Below are positions 31,563 through 62,235 of a DNA stretch of 64,000 nt, in pieces (the first letter of the stretch is position 1; each line of letters begins with the position of its first letter). A model generated the notes under the pieces. The model was not told the DNA's origin. It ran no database searches and was given only the letters and a program-made list of their open reading frames with translations. The position numbers were made by a program, and so were the translations under genes. Origin of the DNA: Syncephalis fuscata (lineage: Eukaryota; Zoopagomycota; Zoopagomycetes; Zoopagales; Piptocephalidaceae); assembly GCA_025786725.1 (NCBI GenBank), contig JAHLTZ010000029.1:186001-250000 (forward strand). Reading direction: 5' to 3'.

Positions 31563-33955
31563 ATTCAGCCTGATTACTAGCAATTTATTAATATGTAAAA
31601 AGCGATAGCACTGCTGTATTATTGGGTCAATAATTGCTTATCAGATACTGCAGCAAATGCTATATCAAGCCACTCGATTATCTGAGCAGGCTCTTCAAGA
31701 CCTATGCTTATACGAATTAAATCCATTGGAAGATTATATTTTTGTGCCCGCTCTGGTTCTTTGTAGTGATTCAAGGTTGTATATGCACAAACCATAGTGA
31801 AATTTGTACCAAATGTTGTGCCTTTAGCGCAGAGTAGTGCATCGTAGAATGCACGGGATGCTTCGGAGTGTGTAGATTTAGCGAAAGTAAACAGCCATAG
31901 CCTCCATTTGGTTTTTTGTATGAATCATATATTTCCCGGTCTACATACTTTGGATAATAAAACTTTGCAACTATTGCACTATTAGTATCGTATTAATTAT
32001 TGCCAACTCGGTTTACCTTTAGGATGATTATAAAGATAATCGCAAACAATCTCTGCCGTATGGTTGATGCGTGCATCTCTCTCCATAAATGTACGGCTGT
32101 TTCGCTCAAGTACCAATACATCTTGCCACCACATTGTATCTTCATAACCTGGACGACCAGTGCCATCGTCCACATTTAATGCATGCTGTAAACGAGCACC
32201 GTGTGGCCGAGTAGTATTTACAATTAAACTATACTACAGGTCATTAAACGTAATTAGATTGGTGTAATCACTTACCTGCCAGCCAGAAGATCGCATTCAC
32301 CACTAAAAAGTTTCGATAAACTGACGATCATTACATCTACAAATGGCAACAGCTGGCTATTCGAAAAACCACCTACAGTGGCGTCTATTAACAATGGTAT
32401 GTTAAATTTATCGGCCAATGCGCTTAATCTTCTGACATTTGGACTCATTAACAATGGATTAGTAGGAAGTTCACAAAAAATAGAAATAATTGGATCTTGT
32501 GTTGGATCATTCAGTATTTTTTCCAATTCATCAATTTCTTCTTCGGAACCATAGCCAAAAAATAGACAGTCAGTTCCAACCAATTCTAGTATCTTATGCG
32601 AATCTGTAAAAACAAAGCTATTTGTTGTTAATAAAGAGCTGTCTTTTATAATTTACCTACCCAAAACAAACAGTCCTGCACTTTGGTTTCATAAATCCAC
32701 TAAACGATTTAAATGAAAAATTGCATTCATACCACATGGATACAAGTATACATTGTTTTCATTTAATGCCAATGCACTAGGATGTTGTCGTGTAAATTCG
32801 GTATTTCCATCATCAGCATCGCTGTAGGTTGCATGTAGAACATTGACAAGGCGCTGCTGAATAAGCTGTTTGGCCTTGTCTACCTGATCAGCAGGTAAAT
32901 GATCAGTGGGTGGGGTCTGAAGCGATATGGCCTCTAGATCTACGTTGTGCTCAAGGGATACATCTGGCTTGTAAATGCCTACTTCGTTTAAGCAGAAATC
33001 AGCAAATCGTGTACTAATGCCAACGCCAGTATATGTCCAGTATTTTCTAACAAACTCAGCATCTTCCATAGGGTAAACTATGATATGCACATCGTACTTT
33101 CCAAATTTGAGCGTATCAACAATTACATCATCTCGAATTGAATTATTGCTTTTGATTGCCCTCTGTTTATATATAGCATTACGACATAATTCGCATGCTT
33201 CGCGCGTCAGTAACAGCATAAAATTATTATTGCTAGTATCAATCTCTAACTGTTTCAGACACTCTTTCGCTAGCTGTTTTACTCGATAATGGACTACATA
33301 GCGTGGATAACCAATGTTTAATATCGAGAAAAGATATGAGTTGTCTTCATAAAAATCTATGTAGTTTTTCCATGCAGGAAAAGATACAGATATAGCATGC
33401 AAATTATTGATTGGAGTAGTTTTTGCAAAGGATAGTTTGCCGAGAGGCAATACTTTTGTCGACATTTGGTTAAAAGTACTGTTAAATAAAGTAGAACTGA
33501 ACTAAACTGAAGAATAAAAGCGAAATACCAAATGTCCCAAACATGTGCTATTTATTGAATACGTCATTCAGCCTTTGTTGTTTAAATATACGTAATGCGT
33601 TGCACAAGCAAATATAGCATTGCCTTTAGATACATAGCAGTATTTAATGATGTGCAAGATGTATAGAGTAAACAAGCAATAGTAAATACATTGTATTATT
33701 TATTGTAAGTTAATATACTAAAAAATGTCTTAATGGTAAATTGATTATTTATTTACTGTATATGTCTACGGACTCATCAATTACTAAAACGTAAATTTAT
33801 TTGCTAGTGCTACGTGGACTATTTGATGGCAGACTGTAATTTGTATAGCATAGCATAGGCAAAGTAATTGAAAATAATACATAGCTATGTAAGCAAATAA
33901 TAAATAAATGATAATGAAAATAGATAGTAATAATATAACGCAATTATTTTAACAA
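31563..33955. repeat. Tandem duplication, unit A (about 2.4 kb)
   Basis: Direct repeat with 34,345-36,738, separated by about 390 bp of unrelated sequence. It covers the whole cystathionine gamma-synthase gene plus about 490 bp of upstream DNA. Introns and the 3' two thirds are nearly identical; the first exon differs much more. Confidence 0.9.
31619..33465 (-). CDS. STR2: Cystathionine gamma-synthase, STR2 type, copy A
   Basis: PLP enzyme that makes cystathionine from cysteine and an O-acyl-homoserine in transsulfuration. Start MSTKVLPLGKLSFAK (33,465). Conserved: INNLHAISVSFPAWKNYIDF, then GYPRYVVHYRVKQLAKECL, TGVGISTRFADFCLNE, then YLYPCGMNAIFHLNR. Then come FCELPTNPLLMSPNVRRLSA, FNIPLLIDATVGGFSNS, and the PLP lysine in IVSLSKLFSGECDLLAG. 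The C-terminal GGYGCLLSLNLHTPEASRAF and NHYKEPERAQKYNLP follow. Introns lie near 32,610-32,660, 32,220-32,278 and 31,965-32,022. Two positions are one base short compared with copy B (near 31,865 and 32,697). Promoter and 3' end are also part of the duplication. Confidence 0.85.
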
Positions 33956-34344: not shown

Positions 34345-36738
34345 CCATTCAGCCTGATTACTAGCAGTTTATTAATATGTAAAAAGCGATAGCACTGCTG
34401 TATTATTGGGTCAATAATTGCTTATCAGATACTGCAGCAAATGCTACATCAAGCCACTCGATTATCTGAGCAGGCTCTTCAAGACCTATGCTTATACGCA
34501 GCAAATCCACTGGAAGATTATATTTTTGTGCCCGCTCTGGTTCTTTGTAGTGATTCAAAATTGTATGTGCACAAACCATAGTGAAATTTGTACCAAATGT
34601 TGTGCCTTTAGCGCAGAGTAGTGCGTCGTAGAATGCACGGGATGCTTCGGGAGTGTGTAGATTTAGCGAAAGTAAACAGCCATAGCCTCCATTTGGTTTT
34701 TTGTATGAATCATACATTTCCCGGTCTACATACTTTGGATAATAAAACTTTGCAACTATTGCACTATTAGTATCGTATTAATTATTGCCAACTCGGTTTA
34801 CCTTTAGGATGATTATAAAGATAATCGCAAACAATCTCTGCCGTATGGTTGATGCGTGCATCTCTCTCCATAAATGTACGGCTGTTTCGCTCAAGTACCA
34901 ATACATCTTGCCACCACATTGTATCTTCATAACCTGGACGACCAGTGCCATCGTCCACATTTAATGCATGCTGTAAACGAGCACCGTGTGGCCGAGTAGT
35001 ATTTACAATTAAACTATACTACAGGTCATTAAACGTAATTAGATTGGTGTAATCACTTACCTGCCAGCCAGAAGATCGCATTCACCACTAAAAAGTTTCG
35101 ATAAACTGACGATCATTACATCTATAAATGGCAACAGCTGGCTATTCGAAAAACCACCTACAGTGGCGTCTATTAACAATGGTATGTTAAATTTATCGGC
35201 CAATGCGCTTAATCTTCTGACATTTGGACTCATTAACAATGGATTAGTAGGAAGTTCACAAAAAATAGAAATAATTGGATCTTGTGTTGGATCATTCAGT
35301 ATTTTTTCCAATTCATCAATTTCTTCTTCGGAACCATAGCCAAAAAATAGACAGTCAGTTCCAACCAATTCTAGTATCTTATGCGAAGCTGTAAAAACAA
35401 AGCTATTTGTTGTTAATAAAGAGCTGTCTTTTATAATTTACCTACCCAAAACAAACAGTCCTGCACTTTGGTTTCATAAATCCCACTAAACGATTTAAAT
35501 GAAAAATTGCATTCATACCACATGGATACAAGTATACATTGTTTTCATTTAATGCCAATGCACTAGGATGTTGTCGTGTAAATTCGGTATTTCCATCATC
35601 AGCATCGCTGTAGGTTGCATGTAGAACATTGACAAGGCGCTGCTGAATAAGCTGTTTGGCCTTGTCTACCTGATCAGCAGGTAAATGATCAGTGGGTGGG
35701 GTCTGAAGCGATATGGCCTCTAGATCTACGTTGTGCTCAAGGGATACATCTGGCTTGTAAATGCCTACTTCGTTTAAGCAGAAATCAGCAAATCGTGTAC
35801 TGATGCCAACACCAGTATATATCCAGTAGTTTTTAACAAAGTCGGCATCTTCCTTAGAATGAACTAAAATATGCACATCGTACTTTCCAAATTTGAACGT
35901 ATCAACAATTACATCATCTCGAATTGAATTATTGCTTTTGATTGCCCTCTGTTTATATATAGCATTACGCATAATTCGCATGCTTGCGCGTTAACAATAG
36001 CAAAAATTATTATTGCTAGTATCAATCTCTAACTGCTTCAAACACTCTTTCGCTAGCTGTTTTACTCGATAATGGACTATATAACGTGGATAACCAATGT
36101 TTGATATCAACCAAACATTTGGATTGCCTTCACCAATATCTATATAATCCTTCCATGTGGGAACAGATGCAGATATAGCGTGCAAATTATTGATTGGAGT
36201 AGTTTTTGCAAAGGATATTTGCCGAGAGGCAATACTTTTGTCGACATTTGGTTAAAAGTACTGTTAAATAAAGTAGAACTGAACTAAACTGAAGAATAAA
36301 AGCGAAATACCAAATGTCCAAACATGTGCTATTTATTGAATACGTCATTCAGCCTTTGTTGTTTAAATATACGTAATGCGTTGCACAAGCAAATATAGCA
36401 TTGCCTTTAGATACATAGCAGTATTTAATGATGTGCAAGATGTATAGAGTAAACAAGCAATAGTAAATACATTGTATTATTTATTGTAAGTTAATATACT
36501 AAAAAATGTCTTAATGGTAAATTGATTATTTATTTACTGTATATGTCTACGGACTCATCAATTACTAAAACGTAAATTTATTTGCTAGTGCTACGTGGAC
36601 TATTTGATGGCAGACTGTAATTTGTATAGCATAGCATAGGCAAAGTAATTGAAAACAATATACAGCCATGTAAGCAAATAATAAATAATGATAATGAAAA
36701 TAGATAATAATAATATAATGCAATTATTTTAACAATAA
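34345..36738. repeat. Tandem duplication, unit B (about 2.4 kb)
   Basis: Second copy of 31,563-33,955. The boundaries are where alignment by eye is lost: the left edge is just before the ATTCAGCCTGATTACTAG word and the right edge is after the AACAATAA stretch. Confidence 0.9.
34403..36247 (-). CDS. STR2: Cystathionine gamma-synthase copy B, first exon disrupted
   Basis: Nearly identical to copy A from TGVGISTRFADFCLNE to the end, including the intact C-terminal exon that copy A lacks in frame. The 5' part is damaged: one base is missing just after the start (near 36,216, STKVLPLGK then out of frame). Further changes near 35,990-36,000 remove the LLLTREACELC segment and create stops. Amino-acid differences from copy A cluster in this exon (VHSKEDADFVKNYWIY against VYPMEDAEFVRKYWTY). 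It could be a pseudogene, or an active gene with sequence errors; both copies show short-run deletions. Confidence 0.65.
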
Positions 36739-38853: not shown

Positions 38854-41000
38854 TCAATTAAAAGTCGAATAAATTGAGGCATGACTAGAACTTGACATAT
38901 GGATAGAATCAATGGCAGCCGTTGAATGGTCTTGTTCTTTGCGGAATATGCCTGAAACGTACCAAACTAGTAGTCCAATTACAATGCCAATGCTAATTTT
39001 TTGGAAACACCGATATTCTATATTGTAAATAGATAAGGTGCATATCATGTAATTAGCGCATACTCCATTAGTACAAAATGCTACCTACATACCATTAGTA
39101 TTAATTTGTTGATACACATAGTGAATAGTATGTGGTTAGCGTATAAATGATCAATATAAAATTACACCTACCTTATATTAATATTAAGTTATCGATATGC
39201 ACATAGTACATAGCACATAATTAATATATAGATAATTGGCATTCAATACACTTACTTGCTATCGATATTAAGTTGCCGATACACATACAGTAAATAACAT
39301 GTAATTAGTATGTAGTCGATTGATATGCAATGCCACTTACCACCTATTGATATTAAGTTATTCGTACACATAATAAATACCATGTAATTAGTTGATGGCT
39401 AATTGGCATGCAATGCTACTTACGAACTATTAATATCCAGTCGTTAATAAACATATTAAATAATATGCAATTAGCACATAATCAATTAATATATAATGCG
39501 GCTTACTATATGGTACTATTAAGTTGTTGGTACACGCAATGTCCATTATGCAATTAGTGTATAGTTAATTAATATAAAACTACACCTACCTTCTATTAAT
39601 ATTAATTTGTTAATAAACACATTACATAGCATGTAGTTAGTATATAGTCAATTAATGTACAGTACTACTTACCTTCTATTGATATTAAGTTTTTAATTAG
39701 CACAGTACACAGTATGTAATTAGCTTATAGCTAATTGGCATACACTACTGCTTACCACCTATTAATATAAAGTTTTTAATCCAGAAAGATGCATAGCATT
39801 TAATTAGTACATTGCTAACCAGTATGCAATACCACTTACCGGCTATTATATTAAGTTGTTGAAATGCGTATTACATAACATGTAATTAGAGTATAATCAA
39901 ATAATATAAATTGGCACTTACTTCCTATTGATATCAATTTATTTATACACGAAATGCATAGCATGTAATTAGTGTATAGCAGATTAATATGAAATTTTAC
40001 TTGCTGGCTGTTAATATTAAATTGTTGCATAAAAAATTGTATATAACATGCTTAGCACATAACTATCCACTATATAATGCCACTTACTATCTATTTTAAT
40101 AGTTTTTTGATACACACAGTGCGTAGCATGTAATTAGTGTATAACTAGTTAGCCTAAAATAACACCTACCGTCTATTAATATTGCATTTTTAATTTACAG
40201 TACATAGAATGTAGTTAGTATATAGCTGATTTTTATATAATGCTACTTACACTCTAATAATATTTAAAAAAATTATATAAATAGTACGTAGAATATAATT
40301 AGCTTACAGTCAATTGACATAAAATATCACTTACCGGCTATTAATATTAAGTTATTAGACATACAAAACACGCGGCGTGTAATCAGTATATATTTGCCTA
40401 ATATAAATTTTGCTTACGAACTATTAATATAAGTTATCAAATACACACAGTGTATATATTTTAATTAATATTTAGTTACTTAACATGTAATATTACTTAC
40501 GAGCTATTGATATAAGTTGTTAACAATACAACGCGTGTAACATAATTAGTACATAAACGGCTGATACAAACTATAACTTACGATCTATTGATGTTGGTTT
40601 ATTAATTAATTAATTAATTAATTAACTAGCCATTTACAATATCATTTACCTTTTGTTAATTTAAATCCAAAATATTAGTATCATCGATGTAGTATTTAAT
40701 TTGCTATTTCACGCTAAACCTACCTGTATCTGACAATGCTAATTTAGATTAAAATTGGCATTTATCGTTTTTATTAAATAGACAGTAGAATACAGTAAGT
40801 ATTGGAGCAGCATTTAGAATCACGACTTACGTTCTAATAATACAAGTAGTTAAGCATAGTGTGGTAAGCATAAAACAATTGTATATTTCTTCTAATCGCA
40901 ACATACCACGACGAATTAAGGCTGGCTTAGCATCCACTATAACCATATTGGCTATCAAAGCCACGAAAATGGTGCAGATGACGGCAATAGAAAGCTTCAT
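38854..41000 (-). CDS. Micro-exon gene: secreted/type I membrane protein built from single-codon exons
   Basis: Twenty-one exons are predicted. Exon 1 (40,907-41,000) encodes a signal peptide, MKLSIAVICTIFVALIANMV to VDA, then KPALIRR, ending in phase 1. Nineteen internal exons follow: 3 nt (40,831), 15 nt (40,724), 3 nt at 40,582, 40,501, 40,418, 40,335, 40,251, 40,170, 40,088, 40,005, 39,922, 39,840, 39,756, 39,673 and 39,590, 9 nt (39,507), and 3 nt at 39,424, 39,341 and 39,256. Each sits between a TAATAG-type acceptor and a GTAAGT-type donor. The last exon (38,854-39,017) encodes YRCFQK, a transmembrane helix (about residues 64-81, ISIGIVIGLLVWYVSGIF) and a Ser-rich tail. The spliced frame is open for 110 residues; the micro-exon part reads EPLSDTDPLPEYDTRTGEEV then PYIRAK. 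The splicing is inferred, not shown by RNA. Confidence 0.72.
39018..40906 (-). repeat. Array of about 22 related introns, 83-bp period
   Basis: Minus-strand units share GTAAGT(N)GCATT at the start, a branch-point-like region TACTAATTACATGCTATG about 35-45 nt in, and a conserved 3' end AACTTAATATTAATAG. Between one unit's TAATAG and the next unit's GTAAGT lie 3 variable bases (once 9). Spacing from micro-exon to micro-exon is 81-85 bp for 16 consecutive units. Three further units have lost a proper acceptor (near 40,650, 39,172 and 39,089). The unit at 40,004 has a GC donor. Similarity decays toward both ends. The introns fill 1.8 of the gene's 2.1 kb. Confidence 0.85.
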
Positions 41001-41101: not shown

Positions 41102-42987
41102 GATGATACCGACAGCTATTTGCGTGGATTATTCAGTCTATTTAAGTCCATGGTTATGCTAAAATAACAAAAGAATGTATTGTAAAGGCTATAACGCTGA
41201 AATACAATGTAAATCAATAACAATATATCCACAGGGTGATTTGAAACGCGTATATTAATAGGTAAATGGTGTGAAAATATGCAGCTTGGTTCTTTGTTAT
41301 AACCTGTTTAGAATTTACACATGTGGTGCAACAATATCAATTATATAGCACATATGTTGTATAAATAGCATTAATCTGCATTGTACTATCACTCATTTCA
41401 ACAATGTTATGTTAAATGAACGTATTGATTCTATAGAACCAATAAAGGTAATATTGCTACATCTTTGTTCTTCTAAAAAAAACTTTCAATGGCAACACTT
41501 CCATGCGTTCAAACAAAGTATATTGACTATATTGTGACAATGCTAATACCTTGAAATTGTATTTTTGTGCAAGTATATACTGCTGTACATAAACCAGCCA
41601 TTGTTCCTTAGGCTATAAAATATACTGATTGTCCACAGGTTCTCTCAACTTTGTTGTAGCTATTTTTATAGAAATAATAAGCACTGTTTGTAGCGTAAGT
41701 CAATATGGTATTTGAATAATAAAATACTTTATTTCTACAGATGTCATGGAGCACTTAGTTTTAACTTGGCCTTAATTTATAAAATTACATGCAAATCAAT
41801 CCACAAACTGAAAAGCGTATTTATCGGGCAATTTCAGCCATATAATATTGATTTTGGGTGCACAGTGACAGTGGACTGCACATTAGCCAGTGGTCATTTA
41901 AAGTATAGTTAATTCTCAATGCCTTTGAGAAACAATCATAATAGCGTATTAAATAGCATTGTTCGCAAAAGAACAAGTCAAAACAGGAATTAATAGAAAG
42001 ACAGTTAAACATTGTATGAAAATACACAAACAACGACATTAGAACAGGTATATTGATATACAAAACCCTCTACTAATATAACTAATTCAGTAAACCCGTT
42101 AGTTTAGATAAGCATGGTATACCGTATATAAACAGCACAGTACATACAACAAATAAATAATATGATTGACTAAATGGGAAATAATAACTGCTACGCATGG
42201 CGGTTTGTCTGCATTGCTTAGCACTTGGAATATTTGTTAAAAGAATAACTAAATAGCGTATGATTTTGTGTGTGCGCAATAAATTATTCTTACAAAACCA
42301 ATGAATATAAATACAGATTATTCGATCTACAATCAATTGATGCTAAACTTTGCCAGATAACAGGAAAGGCCAATAGCAACTTTAACTTAATATTATATAT
42401 ATGCCACAATTAAGGTGCGTATAACCAATACCATACCATGTAACTATAGCGCTTTTTGATAATCCACAATGTGCACAATCTAAAAGTGTCATTTTTTATT
42501 ATAGCCTATTTCTCAATCGGCATTGCCTTCCGTATCGATACAGCAGTAAACCAGTTTTCCGCGTGTCGCCTTGATCATGCATCAATAGCTCAATGAGCCA
42601 TTGTTTTTTGCCAGCGCCTCTCTTTCCAACACCTAGCTAGCCTACATAATCTTTGATTCTCTATTTATCACTCATTACCTTATGTCTTGTTAATAGTCGA
42701 GATCAAAGTTTGTGTTTAAGCAACTAGTCGTATTTTCGTATATACCATCACTTTTAGTCTAATTATTGTAATTAAAAGTCGGACCTTTAGATAAATATCA
42801 CCGCCTGACAACACTTGTGGCACAATAGCAAAGCTGAATTTAAGCACTTTATATTTACTAAACTAATAGCCAGCTAGCTTTGCCACATTCGCCTCTATCA
42901 ATAGAACAGTCGCAGTCAAGCTATTACATACATACATACATATACTACTGTCAACATCGTTTATTCAATATTCTCTAAATTAGTGCC
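41102..42987. other. Long AT-rich intergenic region
   Basis: About 1.9 kb. A short plus-strand frame starting at 41,409 (MLNERIDSIEPIK, 43 codons) has protein-like composition but no recognisable partner exons. The segment 42,520-42,960 is less AT-rich and is probably the promoter and 5' UTR of the 7TM gene. Confidence 0.35.
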
Positions 42988-61237: not shown

Positions 61238-62235
61238 ATGGAACAGATTAAAGATTATACCTCTGCATTTGAAGATGTGCTTGACAAAATTGCTTCTCCA
61301 TTGAAGCCACATATTCCAGTTATTGGTCGATTCCTACTGGTGGTGACCTTTTTCGAAGATGCGCTCCGTCTTGTATTCCAGTGGACAAGTCAGCTAAACT
61401 ATCTTATCTATACTCAGGGTATGCCTAGTTTCATTGCCTACCTGTTCCTTATCTACAACATTCTTGTAAGTAATAGTTGTAGGAATAGTAATCTATAGTG
61501 TGTGTGTGTGCACATACATATATATAGATGCAGTGTTGTAAACGTAAAATATTAATTGACGCGCACGTACACGAGCTTTATATTTTGTATTAGCTATTTA
61601 TTAACTACTTGATAATAACATTTTGACAATAATGATATAATTTATAGGCTATGACAATTGCCGGTGGTATGGCCATCGGAAAGAAGCGTACCGAAGTTGC
61701 TGTGGGCGTTCTATTTTCCACAGTCATTATCCAGGCACTCGGCTATGGTCTAGTATTTGAATGGCACTTTTTGCTACGTAGCGTTTCGATTATTGGTGGC
61801 TTGCTTATGTTGCTGGCCGATTCGCTTGCTCGTCGCAAGACACTATTTGCCGGTCTACCTTCCGTCAGCGAGACCGACAAAGCAACCTACTTGCAACTTG
61901 CCGGCCGTATTCTCCTTGTCTTCTTGTTCCTTTCTTTCATTCTGTCGGAGGACACGTCAGCACTTCGTATTGCCTTTTCGGTTATCGGTTTTGTTGCTTG
62001 TGTCATGGTCGTTGTAGGCTTTAAGGCCAAGTGGTCAGCCTTTTTCCTTGTTATCTTCTTATCCATCTTCAACATTATCATCAACAACTGGTGGAGTTTC
62101 GACAACGACCATCCACACTACGACTTTGTCAAATACGACTTTTTCCAAATCCTAAGCATTGTTGGCGGTCTTATATTGTTGGTCAACCAAGGACCAGGCA
62201 GTCTATCGGTAGACGAGAAGAAGAAGCAGTTCTAA
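61238..62235 (+). CDS. ERV29: SURF4/Erv29 cargo receptor
   Basis: ER-Golgi cargo receptor that loads soluble secretory proteins into COPII vesicles. Two exons split by a 180-nt intron (about 61,467-61,648). Starts MEQIKDYTSAFEDVLDKIAS. Conserved: PVIGRFLLVVTFFEDALRLV, FQWTSQLNYL, AGGMAIGKKRTEVAVGVL, then YGLVFEWHFLLRSVSIIGG. The GRILLVFLFLSFIL and NIIINNWWSFDNDHPHYDF segments follow, then FFQILSIVGGLILLVNQGPG. The C-terminus KKKQF carries a dilysine ER-retrieval signal (KKQF). About seven transmembrane segments. Length, about 270 residues, fits the family. Confidence 0.95.

Follow-up and report, generated by a model that had tools for sequence, protein, structure and literature searches.

Genes assembled from many very small exons are known from several lineages. 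Here we compare them with an array gene of the Zoopagales fungus Syncephalis fuscata, located on the minus strand at 41000-38854 of a 64,000-nt stretch of contig JAHLTZ010000029.1 (the window, C212:186001-250000), which is very probably a protein-coding gene whose row of one-codon exons joins a signal-peptide exon to a last exon. In Schistosoma micro-exon genes (MEGs), about 80% of the coding region lies in symmetric exons of 6-36 bp (PMC5825161), and 35 genes with exons of 3-81 bp and introns of up to 5 kbp have been reported (PMC10526429). In MEGs and the Syncephalis arrays alike, variable secreted or membrane-anchored parasite proteins appear to be encoded by a signal-peptide exon plus tiny symmetric exons that make up most of the coding region. 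The arrays differ in that they occur in a fungus, nearly all their internal exons are 3 nt long, their introns are mostly 57-85 nt and mutually related, their products are mostly Cys-rich peptides, and intronless paralogs exist.

Aphid bicycle genes average about 17 exons, almost every internal exon starts at codon position 2, and a megacycle gene has over 100 microexons (PMC9168663). Like bicycle genes, the arrays have numerous small internal exons of one phase (starting at codon position 2), evolve rapidly and count as secreted effector candidates. Bicycle exons are several codons long, and the recognisable repeat in the arrays is the introns, not the exons. Protein searches with the family (4 and 16 matches) returned Syncephalis fuscata only, with no aphid protein among the matches; MEGs did not appear either, in searches that included no direct MEG comparison.

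Isolated exons as small as those described here are also published. Plant APC11 and VPS55 contain 1-nt exons, with a GTRAGT donor at the VPS55 exon (PMC8831610), and a fungal lipS gene contains two 3-nt exons (PMC5639578). These exons resemble the arrays in size (1-3 nt) and in their strong donors, and APC11, too, has intronless beside split copies. However, they occur once or twice per gene, in housekeeping or metabolic genes, whereas the arrays hold 9 to about 47 consecutive single-codon exons in a secreted-peptide family. A preliminary description of the window had taken such an array to be undescribed. No description of arrays of 3-nt exons was found among the titles and opening abstract lines of the literature searched, whose coverage excludes most subscription papers and preprints, and splicing is not the topic of any title among the listed papers that mention Syncephalis. 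Since isolated 3-nt and 1-nt exons are already known, the novelty lies in the array, not in exon size alone.

Three further systems are related in part. At recursive-splicing ratchet points (PMC8605326), as in the arrays, acceptor and donor almost touch, which makes stepwise one-sided removal natural; in the arrays, three bases would stay in the mRNA at each step, and the introns are short. Introners also place many related introns in one genome, and their insertion is reported to go along with one or more adjacent codons being gained or lost (PMC9860276, in whose main text Syncephalis does not occur); the related introns described here are instead concentrated in the arrays of one gene family. 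In three-finger toxins, accelerated segment switch affects segments of 4-53 bp within ordinary exons (PMC2474615). There, as between some array paralogs, exons outpace introns in divergence, while the unit of change in the arrays is a one-codon exon.

A family of arrays with predicted 3-nt exons

As the preliminary description had reported for this place and strand, the array consists of units in which three variable bases stand between a TAATAG-type acceptor and a GTAAGT-type donor, with the signal-peptide exon ahead and the last exon after them. In the 64 kb, 18 minus-strand sites and no plus-strand site fit the degenerate pattern YAG-NNN-GTARGY; for each other gap length between 0 and 30, a strand has 0-6 sites.

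The pattern extends across the assembly (28.95 Mb, 299 contigs), where exact TAATAG-NNN-GTAAGT sites number 2716, against 5 for a reversed-pattern control. The same hexamers 0-2 bases apart were found 42 times (reversed, 55), and those 4-30 bases apart 507 times in all (reversed, 321). A genome search with the exon-1 peptide gave 310 candidates. Of these, 150 were scored, and all 150 matched with an E value not above 1e-5; the count includes the exon of the window itself as well as near-copies on short contigs. What had been described as one gene is thus a member of a family.

We read 21 array loci, the window gene and near-copies among them. The set is not random, since its loci were picked among the first sites of the motif and the top exon-1 matches. 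They were parsed by dynamic programming with splice-site matrices, an intron-length prior and an exon-length prior that was flat from 1 to 60, with no preference for multiples of three. The matrices were trained on units with a 3-nt gap and may be biased to such sites, while the distance itself was unscored. Across the arrays, the signal-peptide exon (judged by eye) is followed by mostly tiny symmetric exons: the 589 internal exons comprise 570 of 3 nt, 5 of 6 nt, 2 of 9 nt and 12 of 2, 10, 57 or 59 nt. Their lengths modulo 3 are distributed 578/2/9 and exon 1 leaves a remainder of 1 in 21/21 arrays, which is the phase pattern of bicycle genes. Counting simply from each donor to the nearest acceptor, for exons up to 45 nt, gave remainders of 554/1/3, and the opposite strand had no such bias.

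The borders agree with the U2-type GT-AG consensus, with GTAAGT donors in 508/589 and TAATAG acceptors in 446/589 cases. Introns of at most 100 nt (n=567) have a mean length of 77.1 nt (standard deviation 3.9, range 57-85) and the longest parsed intron has 987 nt, so that nothing like the MEG introns of up to 5 kbp was found. Long insertions interrupt otherwise uniform array introns in L009 (intron of 502 nt), L028 and L030-L033 (introns of 450-987 nt). These insertions may be mobile elements; an ARAGORN scan of L009, L028, L030, L032 and L033 gave no tRNA.

In the 21 loci the exact motif occurs 379 times where the parser has 570 exons of 3 nt. Scaling 2716 by this ratio extrapolates to about 4,100 single-codon exons genome-wide. 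Upstream, the motif [TA]TAAATAG lies at 139-147 nt in 17/21 array loci (at 123, 123, 190 and 193 in the other four) and likewise in 15/19 intronless loci (elsewhere in two, absent in two); the position in L035 was counted as 144, corrected for its 156-base upstream stretch.

Coding signal in the exon order

Exon 1 stops after the first base of a codon. Every codon of the mature part is therefore made up of one base from one micro-exon and two bases from the micro-exon after it, and the order of the exons matters. In the nine non-redundant arrays that have only exons of 3n length (near-copies L012, L015 and L031 excluded), the 241 junction codons contain no stop, while permuted orders give 10.7 +/- 2.5 and none of 2000 permutations gives 0. 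The same junctions encode 34 Cys versus 17.0 +/- 3.0 after permutation, again with none of 2000 as high. In the other two frames, Cys occurs 1 and 5 times and stops occur 2 and 18 times.

Eight further arrays, with odd-length units dropped or cut and near-copy L014 excluded, have 1/257 stops (13.4 +/- 2.6 permuted) and 38 Cys (23.1 +/- 3.3). A stricter, earlier unit finder gave 6/512 stops versus 27.0 +/- 3.8. Judged by these statistics of the genome sequence, adjacent single codons form a real message.

Intronless paralogs and deposited gene models

At 19 loci (17 distinct proteins), the same signal peptide is followed by contiguous open codons without an array. Downstream of the codons, 12/19 of these loci carry the conserved last-exon motif, and in 11/12 the stop lies 59-72 nt ahead of it. 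We compared the spliced peptides of 17 non-redundant arrays with 23 paralog peptides, namely the 19 intronless ones and four deposited proteins. Three of the four, P0008, P0009 and P0014, are encoded without interruption in the loci retrieved; the fourth, P0002, was found whole in none of these loci. Spliced L025 scored 112 against the contiguous open reading frame (ORF) L056, with a permuted-order maximum of 62; L022 scored 71 (maximum 55) and L021 scored 53 (maximum 47) against P0009, which is a contiguous ORF in L045. In each case 0/1000 permutations did as well. The L025/L056 match covers about 35 residues. The parser had skipped a unit TGG with donor GCAAGT that is visible in L025; with this unit added by inspection, the peptide reads CTYSECMEKCKTYC, identical to L056 over 14 residues.

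The array and intronless forms can be aligned across 350 bp of upstream sequence (mean identity 0.706) and 450 bp of downstream sequence (0.701), in a MAFFT alignment with gaps ignored and without an unrelated-sequence control. Ordinary retrocopying as the sole origin of the intronless forms was rejected, because the upstream 350 bp aligns with the arrays and the TATA-like motif at about -144 is mostly common to both. In-place replacement through complementary DNA (cDNA), or duplication with flanks, fits better. Two intronless members, the deposited P0009 and P0008, lie at C212:181832-183314 (L045), less than 5 kb off the window's left end.

The protein database holds 16 family proteins, all labelled Syncephalis fuscata (BDF19DRAFT). 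Two of them, P0003 and P0004, map to arrays that we read, and neither tracks its array past two single-codon exons. P0004 (BDF19DRAFT_453770) consists of L022 exon 1, CCA, AAG and the third unit read into its intron, and this deposited model thus contains two consecutive 3-nt exons. Among one- or two-exon insertions (donors GT or GC, acceptors AG; exon-1 donor to third-unit acceptor fixed), only that chain reproduces P0004. Since it is a gene prediction, perhaps RNA-guided, it lends weak support. The tails of P0007 and P0011 resemble translated array introns (RKLYC in P0011, as CGTAAGTTGTACTGT would give), which suggests that other deposited models also break off inside arrays.

Exon map and product of the window gene

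In the window gene the parser places 18 internal exons, of which 17 have 3 nt and one has 9 nt; the product has 105 aa. The preliminary description had listed a further internal exon of 15 nt and a frame of 110 residues. Adding that exon does give exactly 110 aa, but its acceptor is poor (-6.2 on a 14-base acceptor matrix), and for this reason it is kept as a candidate only. Exon 1, as described, ends in phase 1. The features, with micro-exons and the 9-nt exon as placed by the parser, are as follows:

41138-41145, minus strand: TATA-like motif TTAAATAG, 145 nt ahead of the ATG, with a similar position in most family members read
40907-41000, minus strand: exon 1, signal peptide, MKLSIAVICTIFVALIANMVIVDAKPALIRR, 94 nt, phase 1, ending CGTCGTG, donor GTATGT
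40831-40833, minus strand: micro-exon AAC
40724-40738, minus strand: candidate optional 15-nt exon CATTGTCAGATACAG of the preliminary description, poor acceptor
40582-40584, minus strand: micro-exon ATC
40501-40503, minus strand: micro-exon CTC
40418-40420, minus strand: micro-exon TTC
40335-40337, minus strand: micro-exon CCG
40251-40253, minus strand: micro-exon AGT
40170-40172, minus strand: micro-exon ACG
40088-40090, minus strand: micro-exon ATA
40005-40007, minus strand: micro-exon CCA, donor GCAAGT
39922-39924, minus strand: micro-exon GAA
39840-39842, minus strand: micro-exon CCG
39756-39758, minus strand: micro-exon GTG
39673-39675, minus strand: micro-exon AAG
39590-39592, minus strand: micro-exon AAG
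39507-39515, minus strand: 9-nt exon TACCATATA
39424-39426, minus strand: micro-exon TTC
39341-39343, minus strand: micro-exon GTG
39256-39258, minus strand: micro-exon CAA
38854-39017, minus strand: final exon, acceptor TACAATATAG, transmembrane helix and tail, stop TGA

Unit lengths are mostly 81-85 bp, with extremes of 77 and 89, once the first interval, of 249, is set aside. The irregular 246-nt intron between the first two micro-exons holds touching acceptor-donor pairs. For the window gene alone, 3590/5000 random exon orders are also free of stops; the open frame is therefore weak evidence for this gene by itself, and the weight comes from the family.

The signal peptide, acidic middle part, transmembrane helix and tail that had been described were all found in the parser product. 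The transmembrane tail is unusual for the family. In the other in-frame arrays the last exon meets a stop inside its first 17 nt, unlike in the window gene, and most arrays read would give Cys-rich secreted peptides, with a predicted length of about 10-50 residues beyond the RR that exon 1 encodes and mostly 3-8 Cys. Eight of the nine arrays with only 3n exons have 10-38 residues after RR and 0-6 Cys, while the window gene has 74 (tail included) and 1 Cys. Its last exon matches 22 genome places at E of 0.1 or below, of which several others stay open; it matches itself at 100%, its copy at 98% and the next best at 51% identity. The window gene is, by its predicted product, an atypical membrane-anchored variant with an acidic middle and a last exon open through the transmembrane helix.

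An alignment of 15 sequences has the majority pattern CxxxC...CxxxCxxxC. Pfam gave no match for five intronless family proteins, and a sequence search of the PDB with a family profile gave none. For intronless P0009, AlphaFold (8-row alignment) predicted a two-helix mature part at low confidence (mean predicted local distance difference test score, pLDDT, 63.6). Syncephalis is a parasite of other fungi, and the peptides probably act on host fungi.

How the arrays change

Close paralogs differ by whole units, with gaps of 79, 82 and 163 nt. In the comparisons among L018, L019 and L020, exon differences amount to 23/70, 41/79 and 36/71 (33-52%), while introns differ at 123/1835, 208/1947 and 219/1828 positions (7-12%) and splice hexamers at about 2%. 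The last two codons differ between L018 and L019 (GCA/ACC and TCA/ACG) though the preceding introns score 1.00. Part of this acceleration could come from misaligned units. Fast codon change could also reflect selection, codon exchange on homogenised introns, or separate intron spread. Codon hypermutation as a general rule is unsupported: five pairs of the most recent copies differ at 6/431 exon versus 209/10276 intron positions, and the effect is strong only in L018, L019 and L020. Units with at most 2 differences in their 72 flanking bases keep their codon in 88/100 cases between close paralogs; within arrays, such unit pairs have the same codon in 9/29.

Donor and acceptor hexamers vary less than introns in 7/8 compared pairs. 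The exception is the pair of the window gene and L015 (6/214 vs 37/1613); L015 (C196:1-6500) is a near-copy of the window gene, with introns 2.3% different and exons 0/58. On a tree of flanks plus exon 1 (39 rows, L035 excluded), the state changes between array and intronless 9 times, on partly weak support (13/36 inner branches starred, long branches, bootstrap not settled). Bootstraps give 7-9 changes and shuffled labels 13.2, and at least 2 are forced by well-supported branches.

Alternative explanations

Several observations weigh against reading the arrays as protein-coding genes of single-codon exons. The scarcity of stops alone is unspecific, since one of the other frames has just 2; the permutation of exon order is specific. 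Nine of the 21 arrays parse with one or two units of 2, 10 or 59 nt, and L015 parses with a 57-nt unit; such units could stem from errors of the parser, from skipping or from gene decay. L015 also has five units whose splice sites are broken or altered at a required base, although skipping the damaged units would keep the frame. Only 3/17 arrays beat every permutation in the comparison with contiguous paralogs, and 14/17 do not, the window gene included: for L029 and L020 the outcome is borderline, with 7 and 10 of 1000 permutations as good, and for the remaining 12, 34-846 of 1000 permutations do equally well. With 342/1000 permutations as good, the window-gene peptide matches no better than chance. 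P0004 retains the third intron, and P0003 runs from L033 exon 1 into the 987-nt intron with no micro-exon used beyond.

The last of these points would fit an array that is one long intron or a non-coding minisatellite, with exon 1 joined directly to the last exon and a splice-like look that stems from descent of one intron. The units are indeed repeats of one ancestral sequence, with a mean pairwise identity of 0.74-0.78 at lags 1-20. However, a non-coding repeat has no reason to hold exactly 3 variable bases, to avoid stops in the phase set by exon 1 (0/241 against 10.7 expected) or to be enriched in Cys in that phase only, nor would it spell peptides known as contiguous ORFs. On the junction-codon permutation and the contiguous paralogs, we rejected this explanation as extremely unlikely. 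The damaged splice sites of L015, the odd-length units of 9/21 arrays and the open frames of the 19 intronless loci could instead mean that the arrays are now mostly relics and that intronless paralogs supply the peptides. This is improbable, since all nine non-redundant 3n-only arrays are free of stops, splice hexamers change less than introns in all pairs but W/L015 (W, the window gene), and most arrays and intronless genes have the same promoter-proximal motif.

Two further proposals concern use and origin. The single codons could be optional cassettes that are skipped in many ways to give many isoforms per gene, which is compatible with our favoured reading. Nearly all units are symmetric and in phase 1, so that almost any subset keeps the frame, and Schistosoma micro-exon genes are thought to work in this way (PMC5825161). 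The strong coding constraint on exon order is rather what one defined product with fixed Cys would leave, and we hold this proposal to be tentative and somewhat unlikely. As for origin, introner-like sequences might have been inserted repeatedly between the codons of an intronless gene, in place of duplication of intron plus codon. The 9/29 same codons in near-identical flanks, the existence of intronless homologs and the 9 state changes on the tree point that way. Yet insertion would be needed at every codon and in one phase, 9/29 is still about ten times the 3% background, and the whole-unit gaps between paralogs show unit duplication or loss. Array introns also have no strong match in the rest of the window (12 weak matches, those listed being of 27-48 nt at E of about 1e-5 to 1e-4). 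Precise loss of all introns through cDNA would equally yield intronless forms; for plant APC11, which has a 1-nt exon, a loss of this kind is inferred (PMC8831610). We consider an introner origin unlikely.

A model for single-codon splicing

A gene of single-codon exons between related introns, as first described, is the best account, on which the parser, stop avoidance, Cys excess and contiguous paralogs agree. That the arrays are spliced in vivo, in which order, and what the products do, we infer from the genome sequence. In the model, mutually similar GT-AG introns, mostly of 57-85 nt, would lie between one-codon exons. Since they are in phase 1, almost every codon of the mature peptide would itself be split by an intron. 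A 3-nt exon leaves scant room for two splicing complexes or for exon-bridging contacts, so the introns are probably recognised as units, as the preliminary description had also concluded. They are probably removed stepwise, so that the exon under construction gains one codon at a time. If the upstream intron leaves first, the next donor stays intact at the end of the grown exon, and a stepwise walk would thus be the simplest route. Both the shortness and uniformity of the introns and the near-uniform GTAAGT donors are in keeping with such a walk. With almost all units symmetric, adding or losing a unit or splice site would alter one residue and keep the frame.

It is tempting to speculate that a peptide arsenal is stored as strings of single-codon cassettes, which the spliceosome deposits one codon per step and possibly skips, and that homologous introns allow gain, loss and exchange codon by codon on a fixed scaffold, so that isoforms and evolution both operate at the level of single residues. 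We regard this as possible, though short of probable. Theories of exon recognition need room for factors on both sides, and up to about 47 consecutive 3-base exons would stand at their limit; the extrapolated number of such exons in one genome offers material for study. The layout makes single-residue insertions and deletions frame-safe in a family that resembles secreted parasite effectors. The deposited models miss the array layout where checked. Similar genes may hide elsewhere.

Other features

A second tandem array, with a 158-bp period, lies on the minus strand at C19:3862-4836 and C24:513729-514230. Its units read CAATAG-CAG-GTAAGT (some CAACAG-CAG), with the same codon each time. In the window, the neighbouring minus-strand ORFs at 32689-33465 and 35442-35981 have a nearly identical C-terminal half and gave no Pfam match, and a SURF4 family gene lies on the plus strand at 61651-62235.

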